The notes beneath the pieces are model-generated. The model saw nothing but the letters and a program-made list of their open reading frames with translations. It ran no database searches and was not told where the DNA came from. Position numbers and translations under genes: made by a program. DNA of 48,999 nucleotides from a virus: positions 1-48,999 of IMG/VR virus record IMGVR_UViG_3300020420_000022; one strand, 5' to 3'. This document shows positions 16,833-41,780 of the stretch, in pieces. Every line of letters begins with the position of its first letter. Position 1 is the first letter of the stretch.

Positions 16833-16840
16833 TATTTATG
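16833..16840 (-). promoter_or_regulatory. T4-type late promoter variant (CATAAATA)
   Basis: The minus strand reads CATAAATA followed by AAACTGTA, ahead of the ATG at 16810. The 15-base string ATAAATAAAACTGTA is shared exactly with the promoter in front of gp25. The box itself overlaps the last codons of the YHYH gene, whose stop is at 16836-16838. Confidence 0.65.
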
Positions 16841-18437
16841 TGGCGTCGAAGGAAACTTGTGTGCTATCCAACTTCAAGTTAGTTGATGAGAAGTCCTCAG
16901 CAGTTCCACCGCCAACACCAGTAACAGTTAATGTAGCGATTTCAGTTGTTAATGGTGAGTTTGTTGCTGGTGTTTGTCCAATAGGTCCTGCAATTACACA
17001 ACGGAATTTGTATCCTGTCATGTATGATAATGCAGTGAATGCATATGAATTGCTTGTTGCACCAGTAACAACAGCAAAAGAGAATCCGCCATCTGTTGAT
17101 CTATACCACTGATAAGACTTGGGACCATCTTCGGGTGATATAGCAGCAGTAACAACGAATGTGACTGTATTGCCAGCAGCAGCAGTTGCGTTTGCTGGTT
17201 GTGCACCAATCTGAATAGTAGCAGGAGGTGCCTCTCCTCCTCCTGATGGAGGTGGTGGGGGTGCCTGTGCTCCGTTGTTTGGTGGTTGATCTATTGATTC
17301 TCTACATGTGAAACCCATCAAGTATGGGAATATTGCTTTCAAATTTGACTCACTATCTAACTCAGTAGATAAGAAATATGCATATGTTCCATTTGGATAT
17401 TCTGGTGTTACACAGAATCTACCATTATGATAATCTAATACACCAAGACCCTCTGCATACTCCCAGTCTTGCATCAGAGAACCAGCAGGAGGATTAAGTT
17501 GACTGGTACCATAGGTAGGTCTGCCTGCAACCTCTTCTGCTTTTATTCTATAAGAACTTGTTGCTAATGATATACCAGATCCATTGTTCCAAGGACTTGT
17601 GTAGAAATAAGGTCCATAGATAGGGAATCCATCAAATGCTATTCCAACCATCTTTGAGTGCCCATCTGGGTGCCTTAGATTGTCACCATTATACTGTGAT
17701 GAACCATAGTAATCATTGTATGTTGACATAACAGCATTTGCTTTCCAGCATGCTAAGAAGTCAGTGTCATGGTAATGATATTGTCCTGTCTGTTCTGGGT
17801 GTCCACCACAATTATCATCTCCAAAACTTACCACAGCATCTTCAAAGTGTGCATTCCAATTAAATCCTGCTGGGGGATTACCTCCATCACCAGCACTAGG
17901 ATTAAAGAATACTACACCATTAGATGCTACACCAATAGCACCAAGAGGTGTTGCAACACGAGCATTTCTTTGATCGTAATACTCTACTGTACCATTTTGA
18001 TCAGAAGCAAAGTCTACAATAAGTTGTAAATTATTACTTGTCTCTCTCCAAAACTCCCCAGCAATAGCAGTCTGAGTTGTCCCCCTGTATATGAATACTT
18101 GTTTACGTTCGTTAGCAGTGTCCTTATCGAATACAAATAGAATCCTATCACCAACTCTAATCTGTCCACTAGATTCTGTTCCGAGCAGCGTATTGTCGTT
18201 AGCCGAGAGTGGTAATGATACTAGGTATCCATTCTGTGTGTATGTTGCAGTATCAAACGTTCTTGTAACACCAAATGTACCACCTCTAAAATAAAAGTCA
18301 TGGTCAAAGTCTTGCTCAGTTACAGAACTAGGATTATTCGCATTAGGAAACGTACCATAGAGTACAGGGTTTGGTAAACCATCTGCTGATACATCTATGA
18401 TTCGTGTTGCTGGATTGTAGGTTGCGGTCCCTGCCAT
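16836..18437 (-). CDS. YHYH-domain virion protein with C-terminal Ig-like fold
   Basis: The 533-aa protein contains a complete YHYH domain over residues about 170-380: FNWNAHFED, Cys210, the diagnostic QYHYHD at 219-224, HPDGH at 256-260, DGFPIYGPY at 269-277 and NGRFCVTPEYPNGTYAYF at 338-355. A Pro/Gly linker follows (about 385-405). Residues about 408-507 look like an Ig-like domain (QPANATAAAGNTVTFVV, SYQWYRS, KFRCVIAG). The YHYH domain occurs in marine bacteria and phages; its biochemical role is not settled, and the clustered His/Cys suggest metal binding. The gene follows the giant gene with only a 7-base gap and shares its YHYH-like and Ig-like elements. A surface role on the tail is the likely interpretation. 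No Shine-Dalgarno is visible before the ATG. Confidence 0.88.
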   Translation of the reverse strand: MAGTATYNPATRIIDVSADGLPNPVLYGTFPNANNPSSVTEQDFDHDFYFRGGTFGVTRTFDTATYTQNGYLVSLPLSANDNTLLGTESSGQIRVGDRILFVFDKDTANERKQVFIYRGTTQTAIAGEFWRETSNNLQLIVDFASDQNGTVEYYDQRNARVATPLGAIGVASNGVVFFNPSAGDGGNPPAGFNWNAHFEDAVVSFGDDNCGGHPEQTGQYHYHDTDFLACWKANAVMSTYNDYYGSSQYNGDNLRHPDGHSKMVGIAFDGFPIYGPYFYTSPWNNGSGISLATSSYRIKAEEVAGRPTYGTSQLNPPAGSLMQDWEYAEGLGVLDYHNGRFCVTPEYPNGTYAYFLSTELDSESNLKAIFPYLMGFTCRESIDQPPNNGAQAPPPPPSGGGEAPPATIQIGAQPANATAAAGNTVTFVVTAAISPEDGPKSYQWYRSTDGGFSFAVVTGATSNSYAFTALSYMTGYKFRCVIAGPIGQTPATNSPLTTEIATLTVTGVGGGTAEDFSSTNLKLDSTQVSFDAT

Positions 18438-18444: not shown

Positions 18445-21400
18445 TTATTGGAAGAGTTGATTAGGTGTGAAGTTAGAAATTACAGTAGCACCAGTCTGTA
18501 CTGTTAGGATTACAGAGTTAGAGTAAACAGGTTGTGCACCAGCAGCGGTGATAGCAACTCTAAACTCATCACCATCATCTGCCTGTTCAGCAGCGTTAGA
18601 TGTGTAAACTGCTTGTGTAGAACCAGTGATGTTTGACCATGCAGTTTCACCGTATTGCTTACGCTGCCACTGATAGTTGAGAGGTGTAGTTCCTACACTG
18701 TTATCAGATTGTAGTCTGAATGATCCATCTACTGTGAATGATGCAGTCTGACCTTGGTTAACAGTTACGTTTGTTGGTTGAGCATTGATAACAATATAAC
18801 CAGCGACGATAACGATTGGATTACCATCTGCATCTGTACCTTGTCCAAGGTATGTGTCAAATCCACCGTTAACACCACCACCAGTAGGTGCAACGAAATC
18901 ATCTTCAACAGTTGTTTCTACAACAACATCAGGTAATGCATAACCAATACCAGCGTTCTTAACAACGATACTTGATATACCCATCAACGCACGAACACGA
19001 CCATCAAATCCAGTAGATGATATAACATCAACTTGTGGACGTGATGAATAACCATCACCAGGAGTTGTGATTATTGCTTTTGTTATTTCACCCGCTTTAA
19101 TAGTTGATAACGCAGAAGCGTCACGACCCTTAACAGTTCCTGTGTACTCGAAAGTAATTAAGGAGTTTGAAGATTCGATCAACGCAACTTCACGAGGAGA
19201 ACCTTCTCCTTCGATCTCTAATACGTCTCCTGCTTCGATAGGAGGTACAACAGTTGCAGCGATAACGTCAGCATCAGAACCAATGTATGAGAATGCTACG
19301 AATGTAGATCCTGCACGAGGAGTTTCAGCAAAGATTATTCTTGAACCAACAAGTTCGTAACCTATTCCAGGTTCCTGTATAACACCGTTCAATGAACAGA
19401 TGATATTGTTCTCTGGTAATATTGTTGCAGAATCAACACCCTCTGTTAATGTTAGTGAGTAGAATCCACCAAGGTATTTGAGGTTGAAGGACGAACGAAG
19501 TGAATCAAATTCAAAACTAATGTCGTCCAACTGGCGTAACTTACCGACATAGTATCCGATAAACTCAGATCCGATAGTTGGAGGTTCTGTAAATTGGATC
19601 TGGTCTGAGAAGGCAGTGTATGCAAAGTTTGCTCCTGGGGGTTGTAGTACACCATTGACAAATGTGAGGATGTGACCAGCAGGGTCGGGGAAGTATCTTT
19701 CGCCATTGTTGACGGTCAACTTGAATGTTGTTGCAACCCCATCAAATCCTCTGAAATATCTATCACAACGTCCGAGTAGTCCTTTACTCTGTGTAACACC
19801 AGCAGTCCAACCATAGTCAGATATGATGCTTAAATTACTTGGGAAGTCACCACTTACATTTTCTAACCATAATCTACCAGTTGTACCAGAGATTGCCTTA
19901 CCAGCAACACGTCCATAAGATGTGTAGTTAGTAATTGTTGCACTACTTAGGTTAGCAAATATAATTGGGAAGTTATTAAGGTTCTCAAATTTACCGATAG
20001 CACCATTGACTGCTAGATTTGGATCATCAACTGTTGTACCATCTGCTGCTGAACCATAAGGTGTAAAGTTAGCAAGATAGATGTTATGAATACTATTTTC
20101 CTGATCGTAGTTGTATTCAGTTACAACAGCAGTCCAACCTGGTTCTTTTGGAATAGTTCCTTGTAGGAGATATACTAAATCTCCTGCTGCAAAGTCACCT
20201 GTAAATCCTTGGTCTCTTGTGACACTAGCAACCTGATATTGAACAGTCTTAGTACCATGTACAAACTGATTAAGTTCAATCTGATCTAATCCTGATACTC
20301 TAATGTCTGCAATATCAAGAATCTTATCTGTTACAGAACCATAGATGATATCACCATCAACAAAGTCTTGATCTAGTGATTCAATATCAATACTAATTCT
20401 ACCACCTGTGTTACTTGTAAGAGCACCAGCAGAGTTTTCATAAAGAATGATATCTGCCTCAGCGGAGTTTGCTTTGTTGAATATCATTTCATTAACAGCA
20501 AATGCTCCTCTGTCTAGGTTGACCAACATACGAGTCTTACCTGTGCCATTTACACTAGCAGTAACACCACTATCAACACCTTCTAATACATCATCGTCAC
20601 TGAATGCACCAGTAATATTCTCAACGTAAATATAACCTTCGTTACTATTATCACCTGTCAGTACAGATGTCTGAACGATACTACCATTGTTAGATGCAGA
20701 ACCTTGAACCTGTATTGTCTCTCCATTTGTAAATCTACCAGATGCAGCGTCGATAAAGAACTTGCTATACAACTTAATAACTTTTGCTTCGTTATTTCTA
20801 GTGCTTATAACGTCAGCACGAGAATCAGATGTGATACCAGCAACAACATCAGCAATATTAAATCCACCACTTACAGGTGTATCAATATCTCTGACACCAA
20901 ATGTTGTAGTTGCTCTTTCGATACCAGATCTTACATCAACAGCAAACTGTTGTTGACCAGTTGTAAGAGTGTCTACACGGAAACGTGAGTATCTTGCATC
21001 GTGTCTAATCTCTCTTGAAATCTCAAAGTATGATGGAGTTGCATTAAGAACATAGAACCAATTCTGTCCTTGTAATCCTTGCTCAATATCTGCTGATGCA
21101 GGAATGTAAGTTAATACATCACCACGAGAATAGAAATTAGGACGAGTAATCTTAACTCTATGTTCTCTTCTCTCGAATCCAACCTCGACTGTTGGTGTAT
21201 TAAGAACAAGATCAGGGTCAGTGTTCCAGTCATTACCTTCATCGTATAAGTTGCGATCATTGGTTGCATGTGTATTATTGATCCATGTAATAGTATTATT
21301 TGTTGGAGGTGTACCTCTGGTTAATGCAAACTCAGCAACGTTAATTGATGCGTCCATGAAGAACTCAGTAGATTCCTTCTGATATTCAATACGATTGAGT

Positions 21401-24400
21401 ATAGCAGCAGAAAGAGTAGGATCAAAGTATGCATCATAAGTATTTTGTGCTCCCCATTCTGATGTATTATTGTTATCATATGATATACGTTTTGCTGCCT
21501 CTGCAATACGCAAGAGGTAGAATACTAAGTGTTGTCTAACAACCGTTGGGAATGCAATAAAGTTACCTTCACCATCAAACCATGTATTTACATACTTCAT
21601 CATTCCAGCATTACCACGAGTGTTCAAGTCGTAGATAACAGCATCCATTATAGTTTCTGCAAATCCTATTTCAGCGTTAGTTGTAGGATATTGTGATTGT
21701 ACCTCAGCAAATGCCTTACGAGAGATTGCTCCTTTGTTAAATGTTAGGTATCTTGCAATGAAACGTTCAGAATAGTTACCACCTGTATGTGGAGAATTAC
21801 CACCACCAAGTGTATCAATCATTAGATCAAATAATGTATCAGATGCAGATATAACGTTGTAACATGTATAGTATTGATATGCAGCATTACTATTGTATGG
21901 AGTTGTTCTAGTAACAGTTGTTAGATGACTAGGAGCAGGACTTGAAGATGCTGCCTTCTCTATTGTATCCATTACAAGATTGAATAATGTCTCAATACCA
22001 GATGCTGCCTGTGCACAAGTATTGTTCCAACCAGATGTACCACCATTTTCATCAAATGTGATTGATGTGTCACGATTTGCCATATCATTAGCATATTTGA
22101 TTGGCCAAATATTTGGTAGTGATTTCTGAATCGTACCATCAGTTATCTGTACAGGGTTAGCAAGTGTATCAGTAACGATAGATGTAAATGTTGTTAGGGC
22201 AGATGCTACATCAGCACAAAGAGGTGAACTACCATCAGCAGTAATTACATAGTTTGATTGATTGTATGGGAAGAAGTCTAAGTCAGTGAATAATTTCTGT
22301 GAGAATCCATGTGTAGAACCAGTAGTATTAACAGTCTCCTGTCTCATTACTTGTATAGCAAGATCTCTTGCTTTATTCATTACCCAAGTTACTTCTGTAA
22401 CGTAACCAGAAACGTGTGCAAGTGCAGTTCCATCTGTATACATTTCAGCAGCATGGAATACTTTATTGTTACCACCGTGGCGTAAGTTCCACTGCATTGC
22501 ATCAAGAACATCAGTAACGTCTTGTACACAGTCATGCTTACCAGCAACAGTGATTGCTTCATGCTCTGCTCTTACAAATGTATGTACATATTGATCGTTT
22601 GCACCAGCAGCACCAACATTAAATGTAAATGTATTTGTACCTGTTGATGTAATTGCAATACCTTTGTTATACCATGGATCGGTTGTTCTAGGATATGCAT
22701 GCTCAGAATTATTATTATCCTTAGTACATGTGAATACTAATGACTCTTGGCGTACATAGATCTTACGCCCTGTTGTTAGTCCATGAGCAGAACCATGGTC
22801 ATATGTTATGACACCAGTAGCAGCATCATATGTTATGCTTCCTGCTGCTGGGGTGAATGGACCCACGCCACTTACCCAATCAGTGTTGTGTAGTGATGGG
22901 AATTGTACAAGCATTTCATGTACTGCTTGCTCTGCGATGAATCTAATATTTCTTTCAACTATATTTGCAGCATCAATAAATCTATCAATAGCACCATTCT
23001 GTTCATATGTACTTGTCTCAACTTCATTAAATGATTCAGAAGCACCACCACCACCAGTTGCTTCTCCACCTTCTGCACCAGTATTATCTTCTGGATCGTA
23101 GATGTAAAGGTTCTCTCTACCAAATCCATTTCTCATGGTAAGGATTGCTATTTCCATTGCCCATGTCATTGCCCACTTAGATGCTTTATCCTCACCTTCT
23201 ACATGGATAAGACTGCTATCTTCTGGATCAAGATATAGTGCAGCAGCATCCCAAGTCTTAGAGTTACCACCTAGTCTAATATCATGAACCATTGCTTCTA
23301 TAACATCTACTAGGTCATCAGCACAATTTGTTCTACCACCTGGAACTTGGAAGTCTAGGAAGTAAGACATATCATTCATTGTGTGAACTGCTTCCCATGC
23401 AATAACATGTTTGTTTCTTTCTAACTGATCAGCAGTATCCATCCAAATATTATGACTTGGAGAAACTCTACTTTGATCAGGTGCTTGTGTGTCTATTGTG
23501 ACTGTTGTGTCTCTATATGCTTCTATCTGTGTGTACTCAGCAACATAGTAATCATCTGCATATTCAGCTGAGATTCCAATACTAGATGCAGTTGTACCAA
23601 ATGTTAATAATGTTTGGTTGATTGCATGATGTGCTAATTTCTTAGTATGTTCAAATGCATCTAACATAGCACTTAGTTGATCTTCTACATGAATGATCTG
23701 ACTAGAAGGATTGATATATTGATCAATAGCATATTGTGTAGCAGAGTTACCACCTGTTAGTAAATCAGTAACAACAGCAGGAAGAATGTAAACCTTAATA
23801 TCTCTTTCACAATATGGTTGACCATATCCAGGCATCACTAAGAAGTCATAATCTGTTCCATTGATATTTGCTTTATAGTCATTTTGTATTTTAAGAGCAA
23901 CTTCTTCTGCAATGTAATCTCTGTTCTTCCACAATGCATCACCAGCATCCCTAAATCTATCACCAGTAGGAGCAAGAATATTAATTATCTGATCTGATAG
24001 ACTTGTTATTTCATCTTGTATTGCCTGAGATGCAGGAGAAGAGAAGTTATTAGGAACTCTTAGAATTTCTGTATACTTAGTTCCACCAGCAGGATAATTT
24101 ACAAGATCACTACTTGTAGTTGTAATGATATAGTTCATTACATTAGCAAGTTCATTCCAAGCATATACAGATTGTAAAAGTTCATTACCAACGTAATCTA
24201 AACCACCCGCTTTGGTTAGATATCCTCTACCAGAGATTGTACTGTTATAATTACCACCATATCTGATATCAGCAATAATTGCTTTTGCAATATATTCCTT
24301 AGTATCACGAACACACTTAGCAGTACCAGTTGTGCTAGTATTACTGTCACCTGGAATTATGAAATCAGGATACTTCTCTGCCATTAGACCAACAGCAGTT

Positions 24401-27400
24401 TCTGCCATCCAGTCTAAGTTAAGTTCTAATATATCTGCTGCTTCTCTATATGAATCTCTACCTAAATCAATATCCTCAATAATAACTGTCTTATTATCGT
24501 AGTTAACTTTCTTACTTGTAGCAGTAGAGTTTGTCTGACCTGTATATGTACCAAAACAATCTTCTGTACTGATGATTATAGGTGACTCACAATCTAATCC
24601 AAATGTTACCTTAGCAGTATCTGTTGGGTATGTAAATCCTGGTGTGAATGTATTTGAGTACTTAGATTCTGTGTGGAGTATGAAGTTATCCATATGTCCA
24701 ACAAATCCATTAGAACCCTGCCAATCAGCAGCAATATTAAATGGTCTTTCTAGATAGTTGTTACTATCATTATAGTCACCACCAACTTGTGTACCGTTTA
24801 CAAACAACTTAGTAATACCTGTTGTTCTAGTAAGAGCAATATGACCCCAAACATTAGCAGTTAAGTTATGTGCACCTACGATATGATCTGTGCTATCATA
24901 CCAGTATTTGATTTGTGTTCCATCGAGATATAATACAGGAGATCCTACCAATGTTGCACTTGTAGTTCTTGTATCATATAAGAACTGTGTACCAGTTACT
25001 GCATTAGGACGTATCCACATCTCAATAGTAAAGTCAGCAGTACCAAACTTCTGACGATCAGATAATGTATGTGCTAAGTAAGAACCAGCGTCAAATCTTA
25101 TTGATTGTGTTCCTGCTTTCTTCTGTAATTTTGTTAGAACAGCAGAACCATTAACAGTTAATTTAGAGTTAGAGACGTACTCTCTATCTGTAAATGAACC
25201 AGTAACAGCGTTAGTAAATAACCACTTCAATCCAGCATTTGTTCCCTTACATATAAAGTTAGCATTGGAACTTGAACCTCTGATTGTTTCACCAGGAAGG
25301 AAGAATCCATTACCTTGTAAATCTTTATATGCAATCTTAAATACTCTAAGGTTTTCATTCTCTACATATCCACCATCATTTAGAGCAGCACCAGTAGGAA
25401 CAGCACTAAGTGATCCTGCACCTATTGCAGTAGTAACGTGTGATATTAATGTATGAATGCCTGCTTGAACGTCTGCACAATTACCAAGACCTTCGTTAAC
25501 TCCACTATAATAATTAGGATCATAATATGCTGCTTCGGTTCCGCCCCCATTGTATACAGCATTAGGTTCAGCAGAAACAAATGTATGAGTAAAACCACCA
25601 CCAGAACTAACAGCGTTAGCAGAGGCAGAAACAAATGTGTGAGCATATTGATCAGTCTGTGCAGAAGCACCGACGTTTATAGAAATAGTATTTGTATCCT
25701 TAGCAACAACTGGTAAAGATGCACCAGACGCAGGGTCAGTTGTTCTTGGATATTGTTTTGGTGTAGTGTTATCGTCTTGTGTACAAGTAAATGTAATTGA
25801 GAGGTCAGCAAGTGTTACTGGATCACCTATATCAAGTGAATGAGTTCCGATAGTAAGAACCATTACACCTGTTGCTGGATCGTAGGTTGCACCAGTAGGT
25901 GTATATTGTACAAGAGGAGATGCCCCAACGTCAACTGTAATAGAAGTTTGAGTTGTAGCAGATATATTTAGATCAGCGTTAAATGCTGGGTCACCTGTTC
26001 TAGGATATGGGTGGAATGAAGCACCACCGTCCATAGTACATGTGAAGTTCAAACTGTAAGGTCTGATCTTAACAGTATCTGATGTGGTCAAACTATGATT
26101 ACCAATAGTCATTACTAATTGACCATTAGCAGGAGTATATGTAACAGCAGTTGGTGTAAATTGTGTTAGTGTAGTTCCAGCAGCACCAAGATAAGGACCT
26201 TGATATGTTGTTGGATCTTTCAACATATAACCTGTCTCAGGTGTTCTAGTGTTAACCTGTACATATAATAAATTATTGATTGCTCTCTTACATAATTCTG
26301 CTACATGTTTAAATGCAGATAGATATTCTTTTACCTCTCCTACAAATCCATTAGAAATAGGAACACCAATATTATCAAAGTATGTTTTAATAAACTTGAC
26401 AGTTTGGAAGTTACCATCAGTTGTGATATCTGTTGATAATGCATCTACAAGATATCCTATGTCTCTTCTGCACTTAATTTCATGTGCAGTGTACTGTGTG
26501 ACAGTTACCTCGTCAAGTAAATCAGCGAGAGAACCAGCAGTAAGTACAACAGAAACGTTGTCATATAAAGTTTGTAAAGCTGACTGAACATCTGAACAAT
26601 TAGTAGCACCATAGTTTGTGGTATTGGTGCCAGCAGTTCCATAAGGATTACCTGGTGAAGGGTCAGCAGTAATCCCAGTTCCGCTGGAACCACCAGCAGT
26701 TCTTTCATTATACTTAACGTAGGTCACACCGTCAACAGTTTCAGAACCAGTGAGCATATTGCTCAATGCCTGTTTCATCAAACTAACTGCCTGACCAAAT
26801 GCATAGTTAGTTGCCTCTGCCTCATTATTTACATATAAGAAGGTCGTACCATCGGTTGAGAAATACTTTTGTAACAATTTGCGTGTGTATTTCGTACCAC
26901 CACTATAAACGTCGAATGCTAATGCCTCGATCATATACTTGGTATCTCTAACACACTTAGGTCCAGATGGAATTGTTAATGATGGATATTGTGCAACCAT
27001 CAATGCATATGCTTTGTTAGCAATGTAATCTATATTCTTGATGATTAGACGATAAGCATCAGCATATCTACTCCAAGCATCAGTCATGTTATCACCTGGG
27101 TAGTAGAATCCTGGGTGCTCAACTGCTATCTGTGCATTAGCAAAGTCAACGATCTCTTCTTTGTTTAGAGAGATCATACGACCACCATCTTGCCATCTAT
27201 TCTTAGCGTTAGTTACTTGGTTACCATACTCAAATGTAATAGAACGAAGCATATCGTTTGCTGCTATTACACCACCAGTTAAGTTCTCATATTCAATTTC
27301 AGTAGATCTTACTTCTTCAAAATCTAGGAAGTCAGCGTTGATACGATCACTTGCATCTGTTAATGTAGTAGGTGTAATCGTAGTCTCAGCAATATTGTCA

Positions 27401-30400
27401 AGAATTACGTTCTGGTTAGTTAGGGATATAAGTCTTTCAAATATAATACCGTTAAATGTAGATCCTTTGTTAATAATAAGAGTATCAACAATATCACCTA
27501 ATACATTAGAACCAGCAACTACCTCTGTGAGAGAATCTAGTAATCTATTTCCTTGTGCATCAGGGAAGTATCTTTGTATTGTTTCTCCATCTGAAATCTC
27601 TGCCTCACTGGACTTTAAGTAGTATAATATTACAGGGTTTGCTTCAAAGTCAATTCTTACAATTTCACCAGTAGCAATTCCGCCAGGTCCTTGGAATTTA
27701 TCACCTTCTTCAAAACTAGACCATGATCCAGTTGTGCTACCAACAGGACGTACCAAGTTGATAGAAACAATAGGATCTCTATATGGAGAAATACTTGTAA
27801 TCTTAGCAGCAATATTAGAACTTGCTGAATAGATTATATCGTTTAAGAATATACTGTATGTTCCTGTTTCATATTCAGATGTACCTGATGTTTTAGAAAG
27901 AACTAACTTATCATCAATAACACCATCAAGGTCAAGGTTGTTCTCTTCAATTACAGCAGTATTACCATCAAGACTCGTTACAGTTTCACCAAACTCAAAG
28001 ATAGTCTTATAGTTTACGCTATCTACGTTTAATACATTAGCACCATATCCAGCATTAAAGAATGATACATTCTCTCCTCTATCAAAGTAACCATTTGCCA
28101 TGTCAGTAACGTCAATAGTCTGGTTAACAGTATCAACAGTTTGTATAGTAGCGGTTGCTCCTGTTGTAGCACCAGTTACCCTATCACCAGCAAGTGCACT
28201 TTGTGTAAATGTTCCACCTATATTCTGTAAGAATATTTTAGTAATAGAGTCATCTATTGATCCAATAAGAGCACTGAATCCTGTTCTGCTAACATCAATT
28301 CTTTCATTAAGTACGAATGGACCATTTTGAATATCTACAACATCAATAGATGTAGCACCAGTTGCAACAACTCTTGCAGATGCATTAGAAACAAAACCAA
28401 ATACTGTATCACCTATTGATGGGAATATACCACCAATAGTATTCAAGTTAAATCTTGTAATTGGATATAGATCAACTTCTACATTTCTGTATACAACCTT
28501 AGAATCAGGTTTTGGAGGTTCAGCAAATACAAGGTTATTACCAACAACACTATATGAAGTTCCAGGTGCCTGTATAATACCATTAAGTGTAATTAGTAAC
28601 TGATTCTCATTTACAACTAAGTTCTCACCTTCAACAGCGATTGGGAATGATTTCCTAGATCCATCAAACTGTGATGCAATATTATCAATCTTTTTAACAA
28701 TAGAAGTTAGAATTTCCTCAGAGTTAGTTAATCTCTTCTTACGGAATAGAACCTCAGAGTTATTGAATGTAGAGTAGATAGGTTGTGCAGCACCAAAGGA
28801 TGTAATTTGGTTTACATTAGAATACTCATTGATGTTTACCTGTTTTGTAAATCCAGCAACAACTTTACGTCCAGATACGTCTTTACCACCAGTTAGTTCT
28901 AACTGACCAAACATGCTGAATCCAACAGGATGGTTGTTTTCTAATATCTGTTCTTTCCATCTATTGATAGGAATCTTAGACTTAATAACATAAGAGAAGT
29001 TCTGATAGAAGTAAGAGTCTTGAATCTTTTGTACAATCTCTGATGGTTTACCAACGTCATCAATAAATCTACCAGGAGTTCTAGTAAGAGCGTCAATATT
29101 AAGAACACCCTTAGCAATATTCAAGTTATCAATAATACCAGATGCACGAGATATCACACCTTGTACTTTACCACCAACAACAAAATCTCCTCGTGGGTTA
29201 GTAATCTTTAAAATCTTAGGTTGTATCTGCCAACCTTCATTTTCTGATACAATACCAAATGCACTTGCTAATTCATATGTCTCACCTTGGAATACTTCTT
29301 CACCTTCTAAGAAACGTGATGTTTCTACAACAGCATCTGCTTGACCACCAAATACCTCAGTAAGAAGAACCTGACGACCATCACCCTGTGTTAAGAATGT
29401 GATAAAGTTACCAGACTGTGCATCAACAGGTGTTAAAGCAAATCTTAACTGGTCAGATTCTAGTGAGTTAGCATCACCAGTGATAGCATAGTATGTTTGT
29501 GTTGATGATAATGATGTCAAACCAACTGAACTTGGTTTTGGTAGTACACCGACAGTAGAACCAATATCTTCTGCTCTAAACTGTACAGCAGCACCAGTTG
29601 TAATACCATGTGGGAAGTTGAACTGTAAGTAGTTCAAGTCAAGGTTTACAACGTATGTAAATTCTGATTTAAGTGTTACTGATGGTTGTGAACTATATCC
29701 AGCACCAGGATTTTTAATTAAAATCTCTGATAATCTATTGTTCTTAACGATTGCCTCTGCCTCAGCACCTGTTCCACCACCACCTGATATAATAACAGAA
29801 GGAGGAGATGTATAACCAGCACCAGGATTTGTAATCGTAATCTGTGAAAGAATAGATGTATTGAATAACTGTAAGTTGACTGGGAATGCAATCTCAGGAC
29901 GTAAGGTATAGTCATGTGAGTAACCATAACCAAATTCATTATTTTTAAGAGTTTTAATCTTACCAATCTGTCTACCAGTTAAGAATACAGCAGCACCAGT
30001 ACCCTCAGCAGGAATTACAACATTTAATTCAGCACCAGAACCTGACAATGTAGGTCCTAAAATACCTTCAATACCATCTACATCAATAGATGCCTCTGTA
30101 TATCCTTTTCCTGGATCTGTTAATGCAACAGCAGTAATAGTTCCTGATCCAATCTCTTCATCAACTTCAACAGTAAGTTGAACAAGACCACCTTCACCAT
30201 CACCTAAAATAGGAACCTGTGTATAAACACCAACTGCATATTCAGTACCACCATTAACAATTCTGACTTTCTCAATCTTACGATCTGATGCAATATCAGA
30301 TACAACAGGTAGTTTTTGATAGAATCCACCTGGGGATATCAGTTTAATATTATTAATAGGACCAATCGCTTTTACTGATGTAGTAGAGTATTTGGAATTA

Positions 30401-33400
30401 GGTTCATCTTGATCATCAAGTCCTATATTAGCATTTGTAAATTCTGGTTCATATAATAGTGGGAATCTAAACTCAGTATCACTTAGAATCTCAGAAATTC
30501 TAAATGTACCATCAAACGGTGTCTTAATAACATCAATAAATGAGTTTGTACCAACAGGAGAGTTAGCACCAAGTCTTGATGGGTCAAAGTAGTAAGTAAT
30601 ATTAGTAACTTCTCCACCGATTGTAAACTGAACAGTAGGTGTCTCAGTTGCAGATGCTACACCAGGAGTTCCTTCTCTTTCAATAACGTTGAATGAGTAT
30701 TCAAGTTTAAACTGGTTGTCTTGTGAGAATGATAAGAAATATCCGAAGTTAGATGCATCACTCATATCAAAGATATAAGAATGATTTCTAACCAACAATA
30801 ATGTTGGGTGCTTAGATGATATCTTGACATTCGCAATACCACTGTTTACAAATAATGGGTCAGCAGTTGCAGTTGAACGAAGTCTATATGTGTAATCTCT
30901 TGAAGAGAATAGTTCTTGTACAAAGAATGATCCATTAAATTCAGCAGTTGTGAATCCTTCAACATATAGAATGTCATTTGCGTTTAGATTATGCTTAGTA
31001 GTAGCAGTTGCATATATTAAGTCAGTTCTTGTATTAGCAGTTCTAATAATATCTTTATCAAGGTTTACAGTAAATCTAATCTTACTTACAGATCCAATTC
31101 CATCGATATCTGCTATCTTTGGATTATCTGCGTTTGGTATAGCCGTGATACTATTACCTAGCGAAATTACGTCACCAACTATGAAATCGGAATCTGTGTA
31201 GATTCCCATAATTTGTATTCGATAATCGTTCTCAGCATATGGTCTGAATCTAGCAAACGAATCTAATCCTGTATATGTTGAAACGTATGCCCAGTTGACA
31301 TTTCCATCACTAACAGTACCAGTTGTATGTACAGGAGCAGTTGGTCCAGCAATACCATCTGCTTGTGCCTGATACTTGTATCTACCATAGTAAACAAAAT
31401 CATTAGCAGAATAAGATCTATTTTCTTCCCATTCTGGTTCGGATGGTCTGGGCCAAGCATAGTCTGCAAGATTAACTTGTAATGTTCCAGATACACTAAT
31501 AAAGTTCCATGTGACAGCACCATCAGTAACTATACCAATAGAGTGTGTAGGAGCAGTTCCACCTGATGTAGCAGAGTTTGTAGCAGCATATATCTTACCA
31601 GAACTATAAACCTGATCTCCAACAACATATGCCTTACCAGTTACCCATTGTTCCTGTGGACGCTTAACATTGAACTCTATGTTGTCAATAGTGTTTTCTT
31701 CGTTAGTATCGTTTCTAAATCTGTCAGAATCGTTAAAGGTACCATATATCTTACCAATCTTGTATTTGGTGCCTAATCCAGGATTATTAAGTGTTCCTGT
31801 TGGAACTCCAACAATAGTACCAAATGCTTGTGTTACACCTTGGGAATTGAACTGTTGAATGATAGTTCCCTTAGAATACTTGATTGCTTGGTTAAATGTG
31901 AATTCTAGGACGTTATCAATCTTAGAATACCCAGCATCCCTAATATAGTATTTTGCAACAACATTAGGTGTAACAAGTAGTCTCTTACCTAATGGAGTTG
32001 GAATAGTCGAAGTTTTAGACGCAAATGATGTAATTGTCTCTGAGAACGTATAAGTTCCTGGACTTAGTTGAGAAGTCACGTCAGAGTAGTCTAATATCTG
32101 TAATCCACTTGCACCTTCGTTCCAAACGGTAATTACTGGATTATTAAGATTATTAATGTTGAGATTTGTATTTTCTGTAAATACGAGTCCATCTGTTGAT
32201 GTTTGGTAATCAGCACGCTTACTATGCTCTCTATCAAACTTAATGTAGTCAGTATTGCTATTAACTGTTGTAATACGATATCTTTCGGTAGGAACTTGTA
32301 AAGATGATCCAGTATAGACTGCTCTTGCTTCAATAGCGATATCATCAATATGTCCAAGGAATGAGTTGGTAATTGCTTGTCCTGATGTTGCACAACCGAT
32401 TGTAAGGTCATCCATTGCAATATCAGCAGTGCTAGTTGCAGTATTTGTTCTTACACCATCAAAATAGACAGAATAGTCATATGAACCCAAACTAGGTTCT
32501 TCTTTAACAAATGCAATGTGATGCCAGTTACCAGCGTCCATTGTAGTGAAATATGTTGATCCAACTGAATCAACAGTCACTGCACTTGCACCTTGGGGTG
32601 CAATCACCATTCTGATCTTACCAAAGTTGGCATCCGACGCTGCACCGATAATATTGAGTTTTACAGTCGAACCAGCGTCATCTATCGCTGTAATCATCTC
32701 CATTATTGGATTATTGGAGTCATGAGACGTATCCATCTTAACCCACATCGCAACAGTCCAATCATCATTGTTATCAAGGTTTGCCCATGATAAAGAACCG
32801 TATTGTTGGAATTTAAGTGATCCTGTACCAAATTTTTGAACTGTACTGTCATAAACAAGTTGTGCACTGTTTACAATCGTAGGAATTGCCTTTTTCTGTT
32901 TTGTAGAGTCAAAGTAAAGATCGTTAGTGTCATTAAAACGATATACAGCACTTTGGACTGATTTTTGAATATTTGCTGGAATTATGACATCACCAGAGTT
33001 ATCAACAGTATGATTATGTGCAGTAAACCCTAAACCGTAATCTGTTGTTGAAGTTCCACTATTCCAAGCACCAGAAATGACATTTGACTTTTTAAGAGTC
33101 GTTCCATCGTATTTGATGTAATTAATAATTGCTTGTTGGTTATTATCTTCATATAAGACATGTGTAACAAGATTAATGTTTCCAAACTCATCAAGAGAGA
33201 TACCAGCGTGTGTAATTGACTCAAAAGGAATACTAGGTGCAATAATCTTTGAGAATACCCATGTTGGGTTAGCAGCAGTGGTTTCAACCTGTGACATTGC
33301 AATTTTGAACAATGCAACACCATAATGCTTAGTTCCATTCCACATATCACATGTGAAGAACAAATCATTGTAAGAATCAATAACAAACTGTGGTCTTCTT

Positions 33401-36400
33401 ACCTGACCACCAGATACTGCTAATTTCTTAACATATCTCATTTCAATGTTAGATCCATCATAGATCATCTCACCAAACATGAGATCGTTGTTATCTAAGT
33501 CAATACCAGTGAATATAATCTTATTATTTCCAATATAATGAATCTGATGTAATTGTTCTCCTTTATTAGGTGAAGCAAACTTACGTTTCTCGATAACATC
33601 ACCTAAACTGTTAAGTTGCATGATCCAGATGTCATCTGGGTCAACTGAGTTAGTATCTGTCCAACCACAGATGTATAGACGTTGTTCATCGTCCATATAG
33701 AGGTCACCAGCATAGTCAGACCTTGTTGAACCTGATACACCAGCAATTTCCTTCTGCCACTCAACAATACCCTCTGGGTTGTTAGCATTATCAAGACCAG
33801 ATTGATATTTGACAACTAATATGTCAGGATTGTATGCAGCAGTTGATTGTGACTCTGTTTCACCAAGAACATAGATGATATGGTCATCAGCAGTTGTTTG
33901 ATCTAAGTATATACGTTTAAATCTTGCTTTCTTGATACTTGCACTTGGTAAAAGTGTTCTATCCCAAATTACACCACCAAGATCAGAGAATTTAGCTAAG
34001 AATGCAGAACTATTGCCATTTGTCTCTGTAAGTTCACCACACGCATACCATGTACGATCATCTGCTGGTTGAATGTCAAATATTTCAAATGATGCAGAAG
34101 ATTCAGCATACTGGTTTAACCAGTAGTAAGTTTTCTTGTATTGCTGTGGATGTGATACTCTAATTTGTGGTATAGCATCTACTGAGTATCCATAACCAGA
34201 ATTAATGATATTAACAGTATCAATCTTACCAGTAGTAGTATCAAGAACGACATCTAGTTCTACGTCTTGTCCTTGACTTGCAATAATCTCATAAGTTGCA
34301 GGAATCTGCTCATTATAACCAACACCTATCTGATCAACAGAGATTGTCTCAATACCAGTAACAACTGACATGTAGAATCTCTTATTTGTATTTTCTGTAA
34401 TAACTCGTGAACTTACGATAATTTCATCTTGTGCAATAAGTTCATGGTTAGCAGAAGTAATAATTTTACCGTATGGTATGTCATTTATAATTTGTTTCTG
34501 ATAAGCAGAAATACTTTGACCTACCACTGACTCAATTTGTGCAGATGCACCAAATCCACCTGTTCCTGTGTTATCAAAGAACAATGTATCATTAACCTGA
34601 TATGATACACCTGGGTTTTCAATAACAAACCCATCAATCTGTGCAGATTCAAATTTTGTAGTTGTTTCTACTTCAATATCAACTCTTGACTCAGCAGATA
34701 CTAATGGGAAGTAATCATATATCTGTAATGCTGCTTCTTCGGTAACTGCTTGCTGATTTGCAATCTCAACAGGAGTAATTAATCCATCACCGTCAATATC
34801 CTCTATTTCAAAGATAATTAAATCACCTTCTTTCTCAGTAACGAAAGAATCTGACTCTTGGTTAGGTTGGCGGTCAATATCAATATCAACATTAGCATAT
34901 GGATCTCTGAAACGAGAAACATCAAGAGGTATATTCTCTTGAACTGCATTTAATGATAAGTTCCATGTATCAACAACAGAGTTAAACTGTGGACCAATAA
35001 TATAAGGGAATACTGGTAAACCTGTATCTGATTCGTCAATAGTTATAAAGTATGCATAAGTTCCAGCAGGAAAATCAGGTGTCTTACAGAATCTACCGTT
35101 GTAAGGATCTAAGTCACCTCTTTGGAATGTGTATTCATAGTCATTAACAAATATACCAGCAGGATACTCTGATAATGCAGGACCGTCTGTTCTTGATGGT
35201 GTTGGGTTAGTATCTACATCATATACAACTTCATCTTTAAGTTTATAAGATGAACGCATTCTTCGTAATCCACTGTTCTGGTCAGTTGGGTCGATATATC
35301 CATATGGACCGTAGATTGGGTTACCATCAAATGCCCAACCAATAATAGGAGAGTGTGCTTCGTTAACACCTATCTCTCTGAATGATTGTGTGACTGGATC
35401 TAATACAACGTTATCACCAACAACATATCTTAGTTCTTTTGGATCTGATATATGTGCATACTCACCACCATACTGGTTATTGAATCCAGTAAATACATAT
35501 CCTCTCGCTACGTCATACTTTGATGCTAAATCGTATTCAAGGTTTTTATTCCACTGGAATACGTTTGCTTGGAATGTTGCTAGTTGACCAACCGCTTCTA
35601 AACGTACAGTTGTCATTCCTTGTGTATATCCAACACCTCTGTTTGTAATTGTTACAGATATAACTTTACCTTTATCTTCTCCTAATGTTCCAATAACAGC
35701 AACTGCCTGAGCACCAAATCCATCACCATTAATAAAGATAGTAGGTGCAGTTGTATATCCAGATCCAGAGTTAATAATAGCGATTGATACAATACGACCA
35801 TTAATAACAATAGGTTGTGCCAGAGCACCTTCACCAGAGTTTAGTCTGATTGAAGGAGTTGATGTATATCCAGCACCAGGGGATGTTAGAGTTACACCTG
35901 ATATAGGACCACGAACTTGTGCAGATGCAAGAGCACCTACTCCGCCACCACCAGTAATTGATATAGTAGGTTGAGATGTATATCCAGTTCCAGCGTTCTC
36001 TACAAGTACTCTTGTTACTCTACCATTAGTAACAACCGCTTGTGCAGTTGCACCAGATCCACCACCACCAACAATAGATATTAATGGTTGTGTTGTGTAA
36101 TTAGATCCTTCATTAGTTACAGCAATAGAGAATAAAGAACCATTAACAGTTACCGCAGCAGCAGCACCTGTACCTCCACCACCAGTTATTTCTAATGCTG
36201 GTTTTGATCCAGCGTCATAGTCCTCTCCATTTGTAAGAATACTAATACTGGTTAAAGGTCCAAATGTTACAACATCAGCAGACTTATAAGACCATGCAGC
36301 AACACCATTTACCCATGATCCGATAGGAGTATTGGGTGCAACTACTGTTCTTGTAGATACTGTCTCAACTGTTCTAGGGAATCTTAGTAACTTACGTTGG

Positions 36401-39400
36401 TTTCCTGGAATAAGTGCAGATCCTGTAAATGGTCCAACCTTGTAGTTGGGTAATCCAGATGCAGCAATGTAAACATAAGCACTATTGAAGAAGGAGTTCT
36501 GTATGTTAGATGTAAAGAGTGATATAACTTCATTAATAGAGTTTACAGTTGACTTACCTCTGTTGAGGTCAACTGATAATAGAATATTACCCTGTGGAAC
36601 AATATCAGTAGGAACAGGTAAGTTATATGTAAAGGTAAATTCATCAAGACGTGACGTTACTTCAAACGTGCCATTATATACAGCAGGGTTAGCACCATAG
36701 ATGGTAACCTTGTCTTCTACAAGTAAACCATGTGGGTTAGAACAAACAACGTTAGCAATTTGACTTATTGAATTGCTATTTTGTGTAGGATTAATCTCTG
36801 TTACCGAGATTAACTTCTTAACGTTGTATAACCATGAATTTAGACGCTTATCATTAGCAGTAGAACCTAACGCAGCAACGTTTAACTTGTCACCAGGTAG
36901 ATAATATGATCCACTGTCTTCTAAGACTGTTGTACCCGCTTCTGCAATACCTAGAACACGAAGTTTGACTTCTGTTGTTAAACCACGGTTGACATATACA
37001 AATATGTCAGAGAATATAGTAGTTCCTGGGTCCCAGTCTTCTACTACACCGTTTTTAGAACGTGTACACTCAATAAACTGGTTTAGTGATTTTTCTTTAT
37101 ACTGTACAATCTCAGAATCACCAATAATGATAGTTCCGTTCTTCTCGGGCCACCCAATAGTTGAGTCAACTGTTATTATGTTCTCTGTTGTTGTTAATGG
37201 TTCTGCAAGAACTGTTTTATAGGGAATCTTGAATACCCCTGATAATGTTTCTTCTGATATTGCTAATTCGTAAATTACATCAGTACCTTCTATGATTGAA
37301 ATGACGTTTTCAATCAATACATTAGCATCTCCTATGTTTGGATCAACAGCATCAGCAAATTGATTAAGTTGTGAGTTAGGTAAGTTAGCAGGATCACCAG
37401 ATATCAACTCTGCTCTTAAAATAGTGTCAACTATCCATGAAGCAGCAGATGGTGTAACTAATTCTTCTCTTGGGTAGTAAACATCAACCTGTTCACCAAA
37501 TAATATCTTGAATAGGTATTGTGCAGCAGTTTTTGTACCCTTAGAGATATAGAAGTCCTTAATAGTCTTAATAACCTGTATCGGATTGACCTGTGAGTAG
37601 TCAATGTTGATAGTAGGCATATATTGACGTCTAAACTTGTCAAATACCTGTCTAATGATCTGAGAGTCAAGGTTATGTACAACAGCACCACTTGAATGGT
37701 TAGTTTGTGCTAGTTGTGCTTCTTTTGCATATATCTGATTACCATAGTTGTCAAACTGTACTATATCAGATACACCACGAGCACAATTAAGGAATGCAGA
37801 GGGTTCGTAATAAGAACCAGCACTTAAAATCTTACAACCAGTGATTTCACCAAATCCAACGTCACAGGACGATGCAGCGGATAAAGGTTCGGCTATGTAC
37901 ACCTTTGGGGGCGTTTCTGTTGAGTATCCTGTACCAAAACTAATGATATTGATATCAGTAATTTCTCCGTTGAATATAGTCGCTGCTGCCAATGCTCCTG
38001 TACCACCGATTGCTTCTCCTAGTGGTCCTTTACGATCATCTACAATATAAACAGAAGGTGCGTCTGTATATCCAGCACCACCAGTTAATAGGTTAATATT
38101 AGTAACACTACCATTAGCAACAGTTACATCTAAAACCTGTGCACCAACTGGTTGTATAATTCTTGCTCTTGGTGCAGTTAAATATCCTCTACCTCTATTA
38201 TTAATAGTAACTTGAACAACCTGTCCATCAGGTGATACTGTACATGATGCTTCTGCATTAATACCATCAACAGGAGCAGGATCAATGTAAATTGTTGGAG
38301 GGTTGCTGTATCCTATACCTGTTGAAGTAACTGTGATAGAATCAACGTTTAATCTACCCTCACCATCAATAGTAGGATCACTAATTGATGCACCACCTGG
38401 GTTTTGGAAAGTAATTGCTGGAATAAAGTCATATCCAGAACCAGAGTCTGTGATAGTAACGCTATCTACCTGACCAGTAGTATCATCAACTGTAATAGCA
38501 GCAGTTGCCCTTGAACCGTTGATTAGATCACTAGGGGGTGTGATATTAATAAGTGGAGGGTTATATGATGTATATCCTTGTCCACCACTTATGAGTTGGA
38601 TGTTTTTGATTCCCGAGACAAGTGATCTTGCAGCTGAGTTGCCACCGACACCAGTCGAACTGTATATAGAAACTTTTGGAGCAAAGTTAAGTTCATATCC
38701 TGATCCTCCGTTTTTGATTATGATTGCTTCAATCTCACCATTGACTCCTATCCTTGTAACCGCCTCAGCACCCGATCCTACGGACGGAGAGACGTATTCG
38801 ATAGACCTTATATGGTAAACATCCTGTGAGGTGATATTTACAAAGAATTTGATTCTTGTATTGTTGTCAGTTAGTACATAATCGATATATGGTCTTTGTA
38901 GAGTACCATTACGATTAATAATTAGACCAATCTCTGAAATAGGTGAATATGGTTGACTATTGTAAGTAATAGGCATTGACTCGTCACCAGCAAGAGTCGC
39001 AACATCAGGATATTCTAATTTTTTGATTACTGAGTCAGCAAAACCAATATAATAAAGAATTTGTGTAAACTCTACTTGGTCAGTACCAGTTTTTGATCTT
39101 GGAGGTGTTGTAAAGACAATTTGAGAACCACTGATTGTATAATCAACAACTGGTTGCATCATTGTCCCATAAACAGTGACAACAAGGTGTTCTGCTGAGA
39201 CAGGTGAGACTGGGGTGCCTAAGAATTTAAGATCGAAGGTAGTTTTGACTCCATCGAACAAACTTATAGGACTTTCTAGGTTTTGACGCTTTTTATTAAA
39301 TTCTTCTAGTGAAATTCCTGGTGTTAAGATAGCATCAGGACCACGAACTGTTTCTTGGTAGTATATTACTTCATTGTCAATCATTACCGAACCATCTTTC

Positions 39401-39680: not shown

Positions 39681-41780
39681 TTAGAAACAGGAGTCGATTT
39701 CTGGATAGGTAAACGCATCTATCGGGTAATTAATTGTATTTATGGTGCCTCCACCATAGTTCCAACCACCAAAGTTGTAAGGATCAAACCCACTTACGTT
39801 TGATGGGTTAGTAATATAATCAACAGGGAAAACTTTCGGATCAAATAACGTAGGATCGACACCTGGTGGGATTGTTAGTCCATCACCGTCAGGTAATACT
39901 ACAATAGGAACACGAGTTGTACTGTCAGGGGTATCTGCAATATTTAGCGGTCCAGCACAGACTTTTCCAGTTGAGTAATCTACTGTTCCAACTGATGAAG
40001 AAAGGATGACCTCTTTTTCATTTCTATTAGTAACCATCAATAAGTTACCTTTTCCATCATCACGAAGATTTACTGGTACTAATGTACTTGATTCTACTAG
40101 GGTGCCATTAAATACTGCTGCTTCAAGACCACTTGACTGTTGAGACGTAGTAAGGGATCCCGCTGCTTCACCAGCAGCAATTAAGTCTGCTACTTCCTCT
40201 GTATAACCAGTTGCATAGAATGAACCAGACTTAACAGATGAGAACTTAGGATCACAATCAGCACCATCACCACCACCTAATGAACTGGGGTCTGTTAGTA
40301 CATTACCAAAGTCAAGACACTGGGTAAATACGTTACCAAATGTAAACTGGTCTAAATTCTGACCAATAGACATCTGTGTCGTTGTACCAGCGATAGCATT
40401 ATCAGCAGAGTCAATCATACTATTAAATTTTGACATTTCAAGACGACCACTAAATCTGTCATCTCTATTCTGTGAGTTAAACTTATCAACTGACTTTAAA
40501 ATAGCAGATGCTAATTCGTTAGCAGACCTTGTTGTACTGTTACCATCAAATGATGGATAGATCTTAGGTGACAAGTAGAAAATGCGTGGATCAACAACTA
40601 CTGGTTGAATCGACGCCATGGAGTATGCAAGTAGTTGATTCTGAATACGTTTCTTTGTTGTAGTGTTTAAGTTCACACCAGACTTTGATCTGACTGCAAT
40701 AAACACTTTACCGTACTCAGGGGGTGAAAGTTTCTCACCACCATAGGCAGTTACTGCTGCTGCCTGGGGATAGATGTCTTGAACAATGTGAGCGTAGTCA
40801 TTCTCTGTAACTGCTCTGTTCTGCGTCGAGAATGCCCTAGGAGCGCGAAACTTAACTGACAGGGCAGATTCTCTCTCCTCGCCACTTTGACTGCTGTCAA
40901 TCGTTGCTAGGGACATCTGAGAAGGTAGTACAGCACGTCCTGTGACATCCACTGCTTGACCTATGAAACTAAACTTATTAGCACCGTTTGCTTTTGGTCC
41001 GTCAGTAGTAATGTACTCTAATACAATAAACTCATTATCAATTAACTTACGTCCTAGAACACCATCACCAAATATTACCTTGTATCTAAGATCTTCTGTC
41101 TCTTCTAAAAAGTAAACACGAGAAGTTGCAGTCAATGCTGTTACGTTTGATGATAGAGAGTATTCATCAATCTCAGCAGACTGTTCGTTTGGTTTTACAG
41201 ATACTGTAAGTAACTCAGTATCAACTCCCTCAGCAGGGATTACATAGTTTGCCTTAGCAGTATCATCAACCGTATAATTGAAACTAACAAAGTTGCCTTG
41301 ATAGATTATAAGTTGAGAGAATGTTGCTAATCCAGTAGTTTGGTCAACTGTTGCTTGTGTGTCTCTTGTAAGAGCATATGTAAATGTCTCACCATTGATC
41401 TCAGATATAAACACATCACCCTTCTTGATAGTAATACTATCAGGGTAACTCTGAGCACCAGGTAACACTGCTGCCTGTGCAGTAATACGAACACATGCTT
41501 TTGCTGCCTTTATTGATCTAGGTGTATAGTTTATCTGCTTTGCAATTCTTACAACATTATCTCTTACTGTCGCTGATTCTAGGAACGCTTCATTCATCGA
41601 CATGTTAGCGGTGAATGCGCTGTAATAAGTATTGTACGCTAATGTGTCTATTAGGTATGATGCACTAGATCCTTCAAAGTCATAATCACTAAACTCAGGT
41701 CTTGTTCTGAGATATGACTTAATGGACTCCTTAATCTCGAAGAAATCTAATGACGTTAGATTCGATGGGGTGGCAGGCAT
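39681..41780 (-). CDS. 6: Baseplate wedge protein gp6
   Basis: The 699-aa protein matches T4 gp6 (660 aa), the baseplate-J-like wedge protein whose dimers form the inner ring of the baseplate. The N-terminal region carries the family signature (EGSSASYLIDTLAYNTYYSA, then NMSMNEAFLESATVRDNV and QINYTPRS, residues about 36-88). Residues about 320-385 keep the J-like core (VTENDYAHIVQDIYPQA, EYGKVFIAVRSKSG). The C-terminus is Gly/Asn/Tyr-rich (YNFGGWNYGGGT), an extension I do not recognise from T4. The ATG follows the gp25 stop after one base, and the pair gp25-gp6 is in the same order as a conserved T4-like wedge block. An AGAGAG stretch about nine bases before the ATG is a possible weak ribosome-binding site. 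Confidence 0.93.
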   Translation of the reverse strand: MPATPSNLTSLDFFEIKESIKSYLRTRPEFSDYDFEGSSASYLIDTLAYNTYYSAFTANMSMNEAFLESATVRDNVVRIAKQINYTPRSIKAAKACVRITAQAAVLPGAQSYPDSITIKKGDVFISEINGETFTYALTRDTQATVDQTTGLATFSQLIIYQGNFVSFNYTVDDTAKANYVIPAEGVDTELLTVSVKPNEQSAEIDEYSLSSNVTALTATSRVYFLEETEDLRYKVIFGDGVLGRKLIDNEFIVLEYITTDGPKANGANKFSFIGQAVDVTGRAVLPSQMSLATIDSSQSGEERESALSVKFRAPRAFSTQNRAVTENDYAHIVQDIYPQAAAVTAYGGEKLSPPEYGKVFIAVRSKSGVNLNTTTKKRIQNQLLAYSMASIQPVVVDPRIFYLSPKIYPSFDGNSTTRSANELASAILKSVDKFNSQNRDDRFSGRLEMSKFNSMIDSADNAIAGTTTQMSIGQNLDQFTFGNVFTQCLDFGNVLTDPSSLGGGDGADCDPKFSSVKSGSFYATGYTEEVADLIAAGEAAGSLTTSQQSSGLEAAVFNGTLVESSTLVPVNLRDDGKGNLLMVTNRNEKEVILSSSVGTVDYSTGKVCAGPLNIADTPDSTTRVPIVVLPDGDGLTIPPGVDPTLFDPKVFPVDYITNPSNVSGFDPYNFGGWNYGGGTINTINYPIDAFTYPEIDSCF
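39737..39744 (-). promoter_or_regulatory. Possible late promoter for the giant gene, inside the end of gp6
   Basis: The minus strand reads CATAAATA 62 bases ahead of the giant-gene ATG, within gp6 codons for a Thr-Ile-Asn stretch. It could boost transcription of the 21-kb gene. Because it lies in coding sequence and is one base off the consensus, it may be chance. Confidence 0.35.

Follow-up and report, generated by a model that had tools for sequence, protein, structure and literature searches.

Phycobiliprotein-like domains in a putative giant baseplate protein of a T4-like cyanophage

A giant gene in the baseplate cluster

The viral record IMGVR_UViG_3300020420_000022, analyzed here over a window of 48,999 bases (positions 1 to 48,999 of the record), contains a single giant open frame on the minus strand, which runs uninterrupted from an ATG at 39675 to a TAA at 18445 (18445..39675). 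The frame encodes a protein of 7076 residues (767,881 Da) and occupies 43% of the window, exactly as described in an earlier reading of the DNA sequence (hereafter, the original prediction). A long baseplate gene of this kind is known from cyanophages and is ordinary as such; its content is unusual. The most unusual part of the protein, missed by the original prediction, is not a lectin but a set of seven domains with a phycobiliprotein fold. We interpret the product as a giant baseplate protein of a T4-like cyanophage that occupies the gp7 slot, carries phycobiliprotein-like domains and forms an arm on the baseplate, and assign this interpretation a probability of about 0.87, a figure that excludes bilin binding.

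The frame is real, and arises neither by chance nor by misassembly. Two further viral records (G001 and G002) each contain an open frame of 7076 residues. The L001 contig aligns with the frame over 18,625 nucleotides at 98.9% identity with no gap openings, and the L004 contig over 18,632 columns at 96.2% identity with 8 gap openings. Mismatches in codon positions 1, 2 and 3 number 40, 15 and 151 for L001, 167, 73 and 473 for L004, and 507, 320 and 1200 for L007. This concentration in third codon positions indicates that the frame is translated and under purifying selection. Tandem Repeats Finder detected no tandem arrays in the window that could collapse in assembly, and an assembly artefact was ruled out by this result together with the other contigs that carry the frame and the third-position bias. 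The profile of PHROG 701 (virion structural protein, 6136 positions) matches all ten tiles of the protein (800 residues each, the last 776), from profile position 2 in the first tile to position 6132 in the last.

All neighboring genes described here are on the minus strand. The giant gene is directly preceded by a gene for a gp6-like baseplate wedge protein (39681..41780; PF21379, phrog_219), with a gp25-like baseplate wedge protein (41782..42195; PF04965) and a PAAR-motif protein in the T4 gp5.4 slot (42407..42940; phrog_281) located further upstream. Downstream are a 533-residue virion protein with a YHYH domain, which follows the giant gene directly (16836..18437; PF14240, phrog_25852), a gp9/gp10-like connector (15323..16810; PF07880, phrog_677), a 627-residue protein, and a gp8-like baseplate wedge protein (11872..13407; PF09215). 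In T4, gp7 stands between gp6 and gp8, and the giant gene, as the immediate downstream neighbor of the gp6-like gene, occupies the same slot of the baseplate cluster. A search for the portal family was uninformative, with no match in the window and none in the controls.

A short stretch of the protein also resembles gp7 itself. A profile of residues 656–800, built from seven sequences, matches residues 732–759 of T4 gp7 with 18.4 bits (E of 2.2e-7 in a two-sequence test), which places a putative gp7 core helical motif of 28 residues at residues ∼705–732 (37480..37563); Baseplate_wedge (PF23786) scores just under its cut-off at this location. Homology of the N-terminus to gp7 was looked for as well and not found, as residues 1–75 gave no match. 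The protein shares with T4 gp7 its position directly after gp6 and resembles it over the 28-residue motif, while T4 gp7 is only 1032 residues long, does not match residues 1–75, and comes from a phage in which the profile search detected no phycobiliprotein-like domain. The original prediction of a virion gene of the baseplate is borne out by the adjacent gp6-like gene, the surrounding cluster (gp25, gp9/gp10 and gp8), the short gp7 motif, and PHROG 701.

The size of the protein, on which the original prediction had laid its emphasis, is not in itself remarkable. Deposited isolates encode versions of 6619 (S-SZBM1), 6737 (S-WAM1), 6817 (ACG-2014d), 7351 (P-TIM40) and 8573 residues (P-RSM6), and the gp7 of P-HM2 has 4454. 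A record size was, therefore, rejected as the finding, as the P-RSM6 relative is larger. The relatives in S-WAM1, S-SZBM1 and P-HM2 were named “baseplate wedge initiator” by their depositors. The giants of S-WAM1, S-SZBM1, P-TIM40 and P-RSM6 (PHROG 701) share the gene slot and, in all four cases, a homologous N-terminal region of 800 residues; that of S-WAM1 is alignable over its whole length (6713 codons). Each of the four contains seven or eight strong matches to the helical domain. They differ in length (6619–8573 residues), and the depositors' product names do not refer to phycobiliprotein-like domains. The N-terminal 800 residues also match proteins of Sinorhizobium, Methylophilales, Agrobacterium and Ochrobactrum phages.

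Domain organization

The protein is a mosaic. Besides the gp7 core motif and the GxGY repeats, it contains one YHYH domain, two lectin domains of the ConA-like type, the seven phycobiliprotein-like domains and, near its C-terminus, a Hoc-like stretch. The phycobiliprotein-like domains (D1–D7) are located between residues 4204 and 6065, and were delineated using an iterated profile, seeded with five copies from the window and iterated on fetched loci. D1 (residues 4204–4306, 26758..27066), also represented by an AlphaFold model, contains the sequence K-C4241-V-R-D and is preceded by a half-copy of the domain at residues 4161–4196. D2 (residues 4383–4468, 26272..26529; K-C4402-R-R-D) lacks the N-terminal part. 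D3 (residues 5076–5185, 24121..24450; K-C5121-V-R-D) matches the Pfam family PF00502, while D4 (residues 5241–5354, 23614..23955) has Y-C5289-E-R-D at the equivalent position. The arginine is lost in D5 (residues 5411–5516, 23128..23445; N-C5451-A-D-D), for which a model and a fold match were also obtained. D6 (residues 5566–5597 and 5701–5779, 22339..22980) is split by an insert of ∼100 residues directly before its D-C5716-V-Q-D sequence, and D7 (residues 5973–6065, 21481..21759) has lost the cysteine.

The GxGY motifs, 21 in total, form two main blocks at residues ∼300–620 (37816..38778) and ∼1180–1370 (35566–36138). The second block is followed by the YHYH domain (residues 1404–1547, 35035..35466; PF14240, E of 2.1e-28, 100 bits). 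The two ConA-like lectin folds (Laminin_G_3, PF13385) are found at residues 2291–2452 (32320..32805; E of 2.8e-12) and 4870–4998 (24682..25068; E of 1.6e-15). A possible carbohydrate-binding module, CBM_5_12 (residues 2676–2705, 31561..31650; PF02839), scores 24.4 bits, just below the cut-off of 26.2. Lectin-type domains, as had been proposed, are, therefore, present, with two Laminin_G_3 matches above the Pfam cut-off. The C-terminal Hoc-like stretch (residues 6945–7060, 18496..18843) matches phrog_613 (E of 7.4e-12) and the Hoc-like phrog_4069 (E of 4.7e-4).

The 533-residue protein encoded directly downstream (16836–18437) combines a YHYH domain with a Hoc-like end. Since both are also present in the giant protein, modules are shared between the neighboring genes. 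A further module, FTCT.D, recurs three times in the giant protein, with cysteines at residues 4546 and 4631 (about residues 4490–4690) and at residue 5650. The third copy (residues 5598–5700; 22576–22884, minus strand) constitutes the insert of D6 before its cysteine. The protein encoded just upstream of the PAAR gene (42940–47028, 1362 residues) belongs to phrog_22792 and has no Pfam match.

Relationship to phycobiliproteins

Sequence profiles and predicted fold provide good support for a relationship between the helical domains and the antenna phycobiliproteins of cyanobacteria. The copies share a conserved pattern, N...I...A.......Y/F followed by C-x-(R)-D......A...D...GGN, and paralogous copies are ∼20–30% identical to D1. 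The Pfam Phycobilisome family (PF00502) matches the protein at residues ∼4205–4310 and 5078–5129, above the cut-off in two of the three tiles that list it (29.5 bits in the window, for D3, against a cut-off of 22.2), and exceeds the cut-off in 9 of 13 phage records. Among 14 control genomes, four match PF00502 at E values up to 10 and only Synechococcus elongatus does so above the cut-off. PHROGs 4527, 5342 and 18802 match the same stretch of the protein.

Searches against the PDB agree with this relationship. A single copy, compared with the whole database using phmmer, gave 13 weak matches (best E of 0.13), of which 11 are phycobiliproteins, while the reversed stretch gave two matches, neither a phycobiliprotein. 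The profiles are more sensitive: the best match of a 15-row phage profile is phycocyanin alpha (E of 2.7e-6), and a 64-row profile reaches an E of 4.6e-7 against all PDB chains. Judged by title, all of the best 60 of 114 matches (15-row profile) and the best 60 of 160 (64-row profile) are phycobiliproteins or a bilin-binding fluorescent protein.

Models of two copies, D1 and D5, were predicted using AlphaFold2 without templates, and both adopt the globin fold of phycobiliproteins. The D1 model has a predicted local distance difference test score (pLDDT) of 81.9 and a predicted template modeling score (pTM) of 0.75. The best 50 of 302 Foldseek matches to D1 in the PDB are, by title, phycobiliproteins or smURFP. 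VIA-align places a bacterial fluorescent protein first (Z of 12.5), with the other 49 listed structures being phycobiliproteins by title; the best of these superimposes with a Z of 12.4 and 3.2 Å over 121 residues. Some viral models also match D1 closely (E up to 0.001), tail proteins of S-PM2, S-WAM2, S-CAM1 and S-H9-1 among them. The D5 model, for which the input alignment includes other copies as well and overlaps that of D1, matches with a Z of 11.5 and 2.8 Å over 125 residues. By title, 47 of its 50 listed matches are phycobiliproteins; a bacterial fluorescent protein, a photocobilin and a near-infrared fluorescent protein obtained by design account for the other three.

Several observations weigh against this interpretation of the protein. 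The link to gp7 consists of one 28-residue motif, with residues 1–75 unmatched. Of 15 copies compared singly with PF00502, no more than 5 match at an E of 1 or better, and the profile alignments span ∼60 of 130 positions in the middle of the domain, around the motif. The best Foldseek match to D1 has an E of 0.016, with none at 0.001 or below, the confidence of the D5 model is middling (pLDDT of 70.8, pTM of 0.60), and VIA-align warns that, with helical models, Z values under ∼13 may be frequent. Weak E-values for single sequences and the ease with which helical folds give middling Z values would also be expected if the helical repeat resembled phycobiliproteins by chance. Such a coincidence would have to accommodate a profile E of 4.6e-7 against all PDB chains with no other family among the best 60 of 160 matches, the same family emerging from the predicted D1 and D5 models (from overlapping alignments), a match that includes the functional motif, and a reversed control without phycobiliproteins; we consider it highly improbable. 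As sequence, fold and motif agree, we accept the relationship. The phage domains thus share a sequence profile, a predicted fold and the C-x-R-D motif with phycobiliproteins (PF00502: phycocyanin, phycoerythrin, allophycocyanin) and with bilin-binding globins (BBAG, as described in part of PMC10151467). They differ in being repeated modules within one structural chain of 7076 residues, and their chromophore is putative.

The putative bilin-binding motif

In phycobiliproteins and bilin-binding globins, according to a passage of PMC10151467, the C-x-R-D motif supplies the cysteine that binds the bilin covalently and two residues that form hydrogen bonds to it. The motif is retained in D1–D4, four of the seven copies in the window, and is invariant in all eight aligned relatives of D1. 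To extend the comparison, 770 matches in 113 frames were reduced to 366 distinct copies by removal of identical sequences and of those that do not cover model positions 30–70; since similarity to D1 was the basis on which most of the underlying loci were collected, D1-bearing phages are favored. The cysteine and the aspartate are each present in 326 of these copies, C-x-R-D in 206, K-C-x-R-D in 136, C-x-D-D in 54 and C-x-H-D in 47, while 40 have no cysteine. In a tail protein of S-RSM4 (locus L113, 17122–30570), C-x-R-D is found in six copies and C-x-D-D in one; a further four repeats correspond to half a domain, with matches confined to the first third of the model.

The persistence of C-x-R-D in 206 copies, although the paralogues are only ∼20–30% identical to D1, would be explained if these copies bound bilin covalently, with a host or phage bilin being loaded during infection by a CpeT-like lyase of the phage. 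The resulting pigmented baseplate could affect light-dependent adsorption, photoprotection or stability of the virion. We regard this explanation as possible, at somewhat less than even odds. It does not account for the 160 copies without C-x-R-D, including the 40 without the cysteine. Furthermore, the loop before the cysteine is ∼7 residues shorter in the phage consensus than in the best-aligned phycobiliproteins and, as a result, the bilin pocket may be closed.

These same features would be expected if the phycobiliprotein fold had been adapted, without pigment, as a helical spacer or oligomerization module of a tail arm, with the cysteine and aspartate kept for packing. The arginine is replaced by aspartate, histidine or glutamine in many copies, the cysteine is gone in D7, the predicted fold of D5 appears to be kept without the arginine, and D6 tolerates its insert of ∼100 residues in the loop beside the cysteine. 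We give this explanation an even chance; it leaves the presence of the cysteine and of the aspartate, each in 326 of 366 copies, without a reason.

Distribution and association with CpeT

A translated search using D1 (tblastn, E of 1e-3) identified matches in 335 of 50,697 phage records. Classified by name, 334 of these are cyanophages (268 Synechococcus, 56 “Cyanophage” and 10 Prochlorococcus), and one is an unassigned marine virus. Of 26 records, 20 contain the domain according to its profile, and the addition of four further genomes brings the count to 23 of 30; the 30 are a chosen set (a 2010 comparative set, with matches and outgroups), not a random sample. Among the 26 records, the profile did not find the domain in T4, the SAR11 phage HTVC008M, phiM12, P-SSM2, S-SM2 or S-SSM7, and it was still not found at an E of 1 in P-SSM2, S-SM2, S-SSM7 and SynMITS9220M01.

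This near restriction to cyanophages, and the absence of the domain from HTVC008M, which is listed in the same virus family, raise the question of whether the domains dock with phycobilisome or linker proteins of the host, or with a ligand on the host surface, independently of pigment. A baseplate protein normally stays outside the cell, which counts against such mimicry of the antenna. The domain is also present in the Prochlorococcus phages P-HM1, P-HM2 and MED4-213, whose host genus is described as lacking phycobilisomes in a passage of PMC2984593. We consider this explanation very unlikely.

A CpeT-like bilin lyase, detected using a phage CpeT alignment, is present in the same 23 of 30 genomes as the domain, and neither was found in the other seven (P-SSM2, S-SM2, S-SSM7, SynMITS9220M01, T4, HTVC008M and phiM12). 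This coincidence would be expected if the lyase loaded the domains with bilin, and is left unexplained by a purely structural role. Of nine genes fetched from domain-positive genomes, eight were used to build the alignment; their genomes, therefore, match by construction, as do the genomes with domains resembling alignment A4. The Pfam CpeT model alone detects 17 of 26; the three genomes that it missed were then found by the phage alignment. On a tree of gp23, the shared label of domain and CpeT requires two changes (2–3 over bootstraps). Since the tree reduces the co-occurrence to about two events, the link is consistent with a functional association but is not strong proof of one. For the same reason, the value that Fisher's test would give for the 27 cyanophages (1/17,550, by hand) was not used as a probability. 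S-CAM7 (KU686213) and ACG-2014f (KJ019100), which have both the domain and CpeT, are a sister pair inside a group of the gp23 tree that is otherwise negative for both, a pattern that suggests joint gain or joint retention.

In S-PM2, Syn1, S-RSM4 and S-CAM1, cpeT is located 0.7–1.5 kb upstream, on the same strand, of another domain-bearing giant tail protein, an arrangement in favor of a pigmented tail; these four phages form a single lineage in the gp23 phylogeny. In six gp7-slot genomes (S-WAM1, S-SZBM1, P-RSM6, P-TIM40, P-HM2 and ACG-2014d), cpeT is at least 26 kb away from the gene in this slot, which does not favor loading of the baseplate by the lyase. CpeT was not found in the window, which is a 48,999-base fragment rather than a whole genome. 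The tail giants of the four phages (e.g. S-PM2p218) share copies of the phycobiliprotein-like domain with the protein in the window, and differ in their gene slot, near the short tail fibre genes, and in the proximity of cpeT.

Two further considerations speak against pigmentation. T-type lyases serve the Cys-153 site, as stated in part of PMC10452541, where this is shown for CpcT and presumed for CpeT; such specificity argues against CpeT acting on a site of the Cys-84 type. Bilin reductases, present in 9 of 26 records, were rejected as the partner gene because they do not track the domain, with two of the nine (P-SSM2 and S-SSM7) being domain-negative.

Functional implications

The gp7 motif would tether the protein to the wedge next to gp6, with the remainder probably forming an arm on the baseplate that contacts the host and the lectin modules binding surface sugars. 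The proposal in the original prediction that the giant protein could reach out as an adhesin is likewise inferential. The phycobiliprotein-like modules may have been captured from an antenna gene of the host and then amplified. Without pigment, they could act as a spacer, in oligomerization or in ligand contact, roles that are about as probable as not. That at least the C-x-R-D copies D1–D4 carry bilin is a tentative proposal, which we hold to be slightly the less probable outcome. The same reserve applies to the broader possibility that some cyanophage virions are biliproteins, with host-captured domains in their tail or baseplate giants loaded with bilin by a CpeT-like lyase of the phage.

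We found no description of phycobiliprotein-like domains in phage structural proteins in open-licence PMC papers. A study of a phage lyase (J Biol Chem, 2017) reportedly left the acceptor of that lyase open. Phage bilin reductases and CpeT are so far without an agreed purpose, above all in Prochlorococcus phages, judging from parts of PMC3037559 and PMC2984593; the former describes what phage pcyA and pebS do as a mystery and treats the function of cpeT as unresolved. PebS is supported as phage-exclusive in a section of PMC13198022. Since the tail proteins of the phage itself offer a candidate acceptor that resembles phycobiliproteins, the presence of bilin in the virion becomes testable. If virions were pigmented, the bilin genes of phages would gain a target inside the phage itself, which could link the virion to the light-dependent adsorption stated in a passage of PMC2984593. 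Even without pigment, an antenna fold would have been reused as a tail module in the 335 phage records.

An evolution experiment with S-PM2d, described in part of PMC9910659, yielded mutations in the short-tail-fibre genes S-PM2d219, 220 and 224; these would lie just downstream of S-PM2p218, assuming that the numbering follows that of S-PM2. In the deposited S-PM2 record (AJ630128.1), 16 transfer RNAs (tRNAs) are annotated inside the open frame of S-PM2p218 (locus L015, 22057–26884). ARAGORN, applied to positions 17000–31000 of S-PM2, found no tRNA inside this frame and placed seven at 17078–18803, just upstream of it; the deposited tRNA coordinates thus appear to be shifted.

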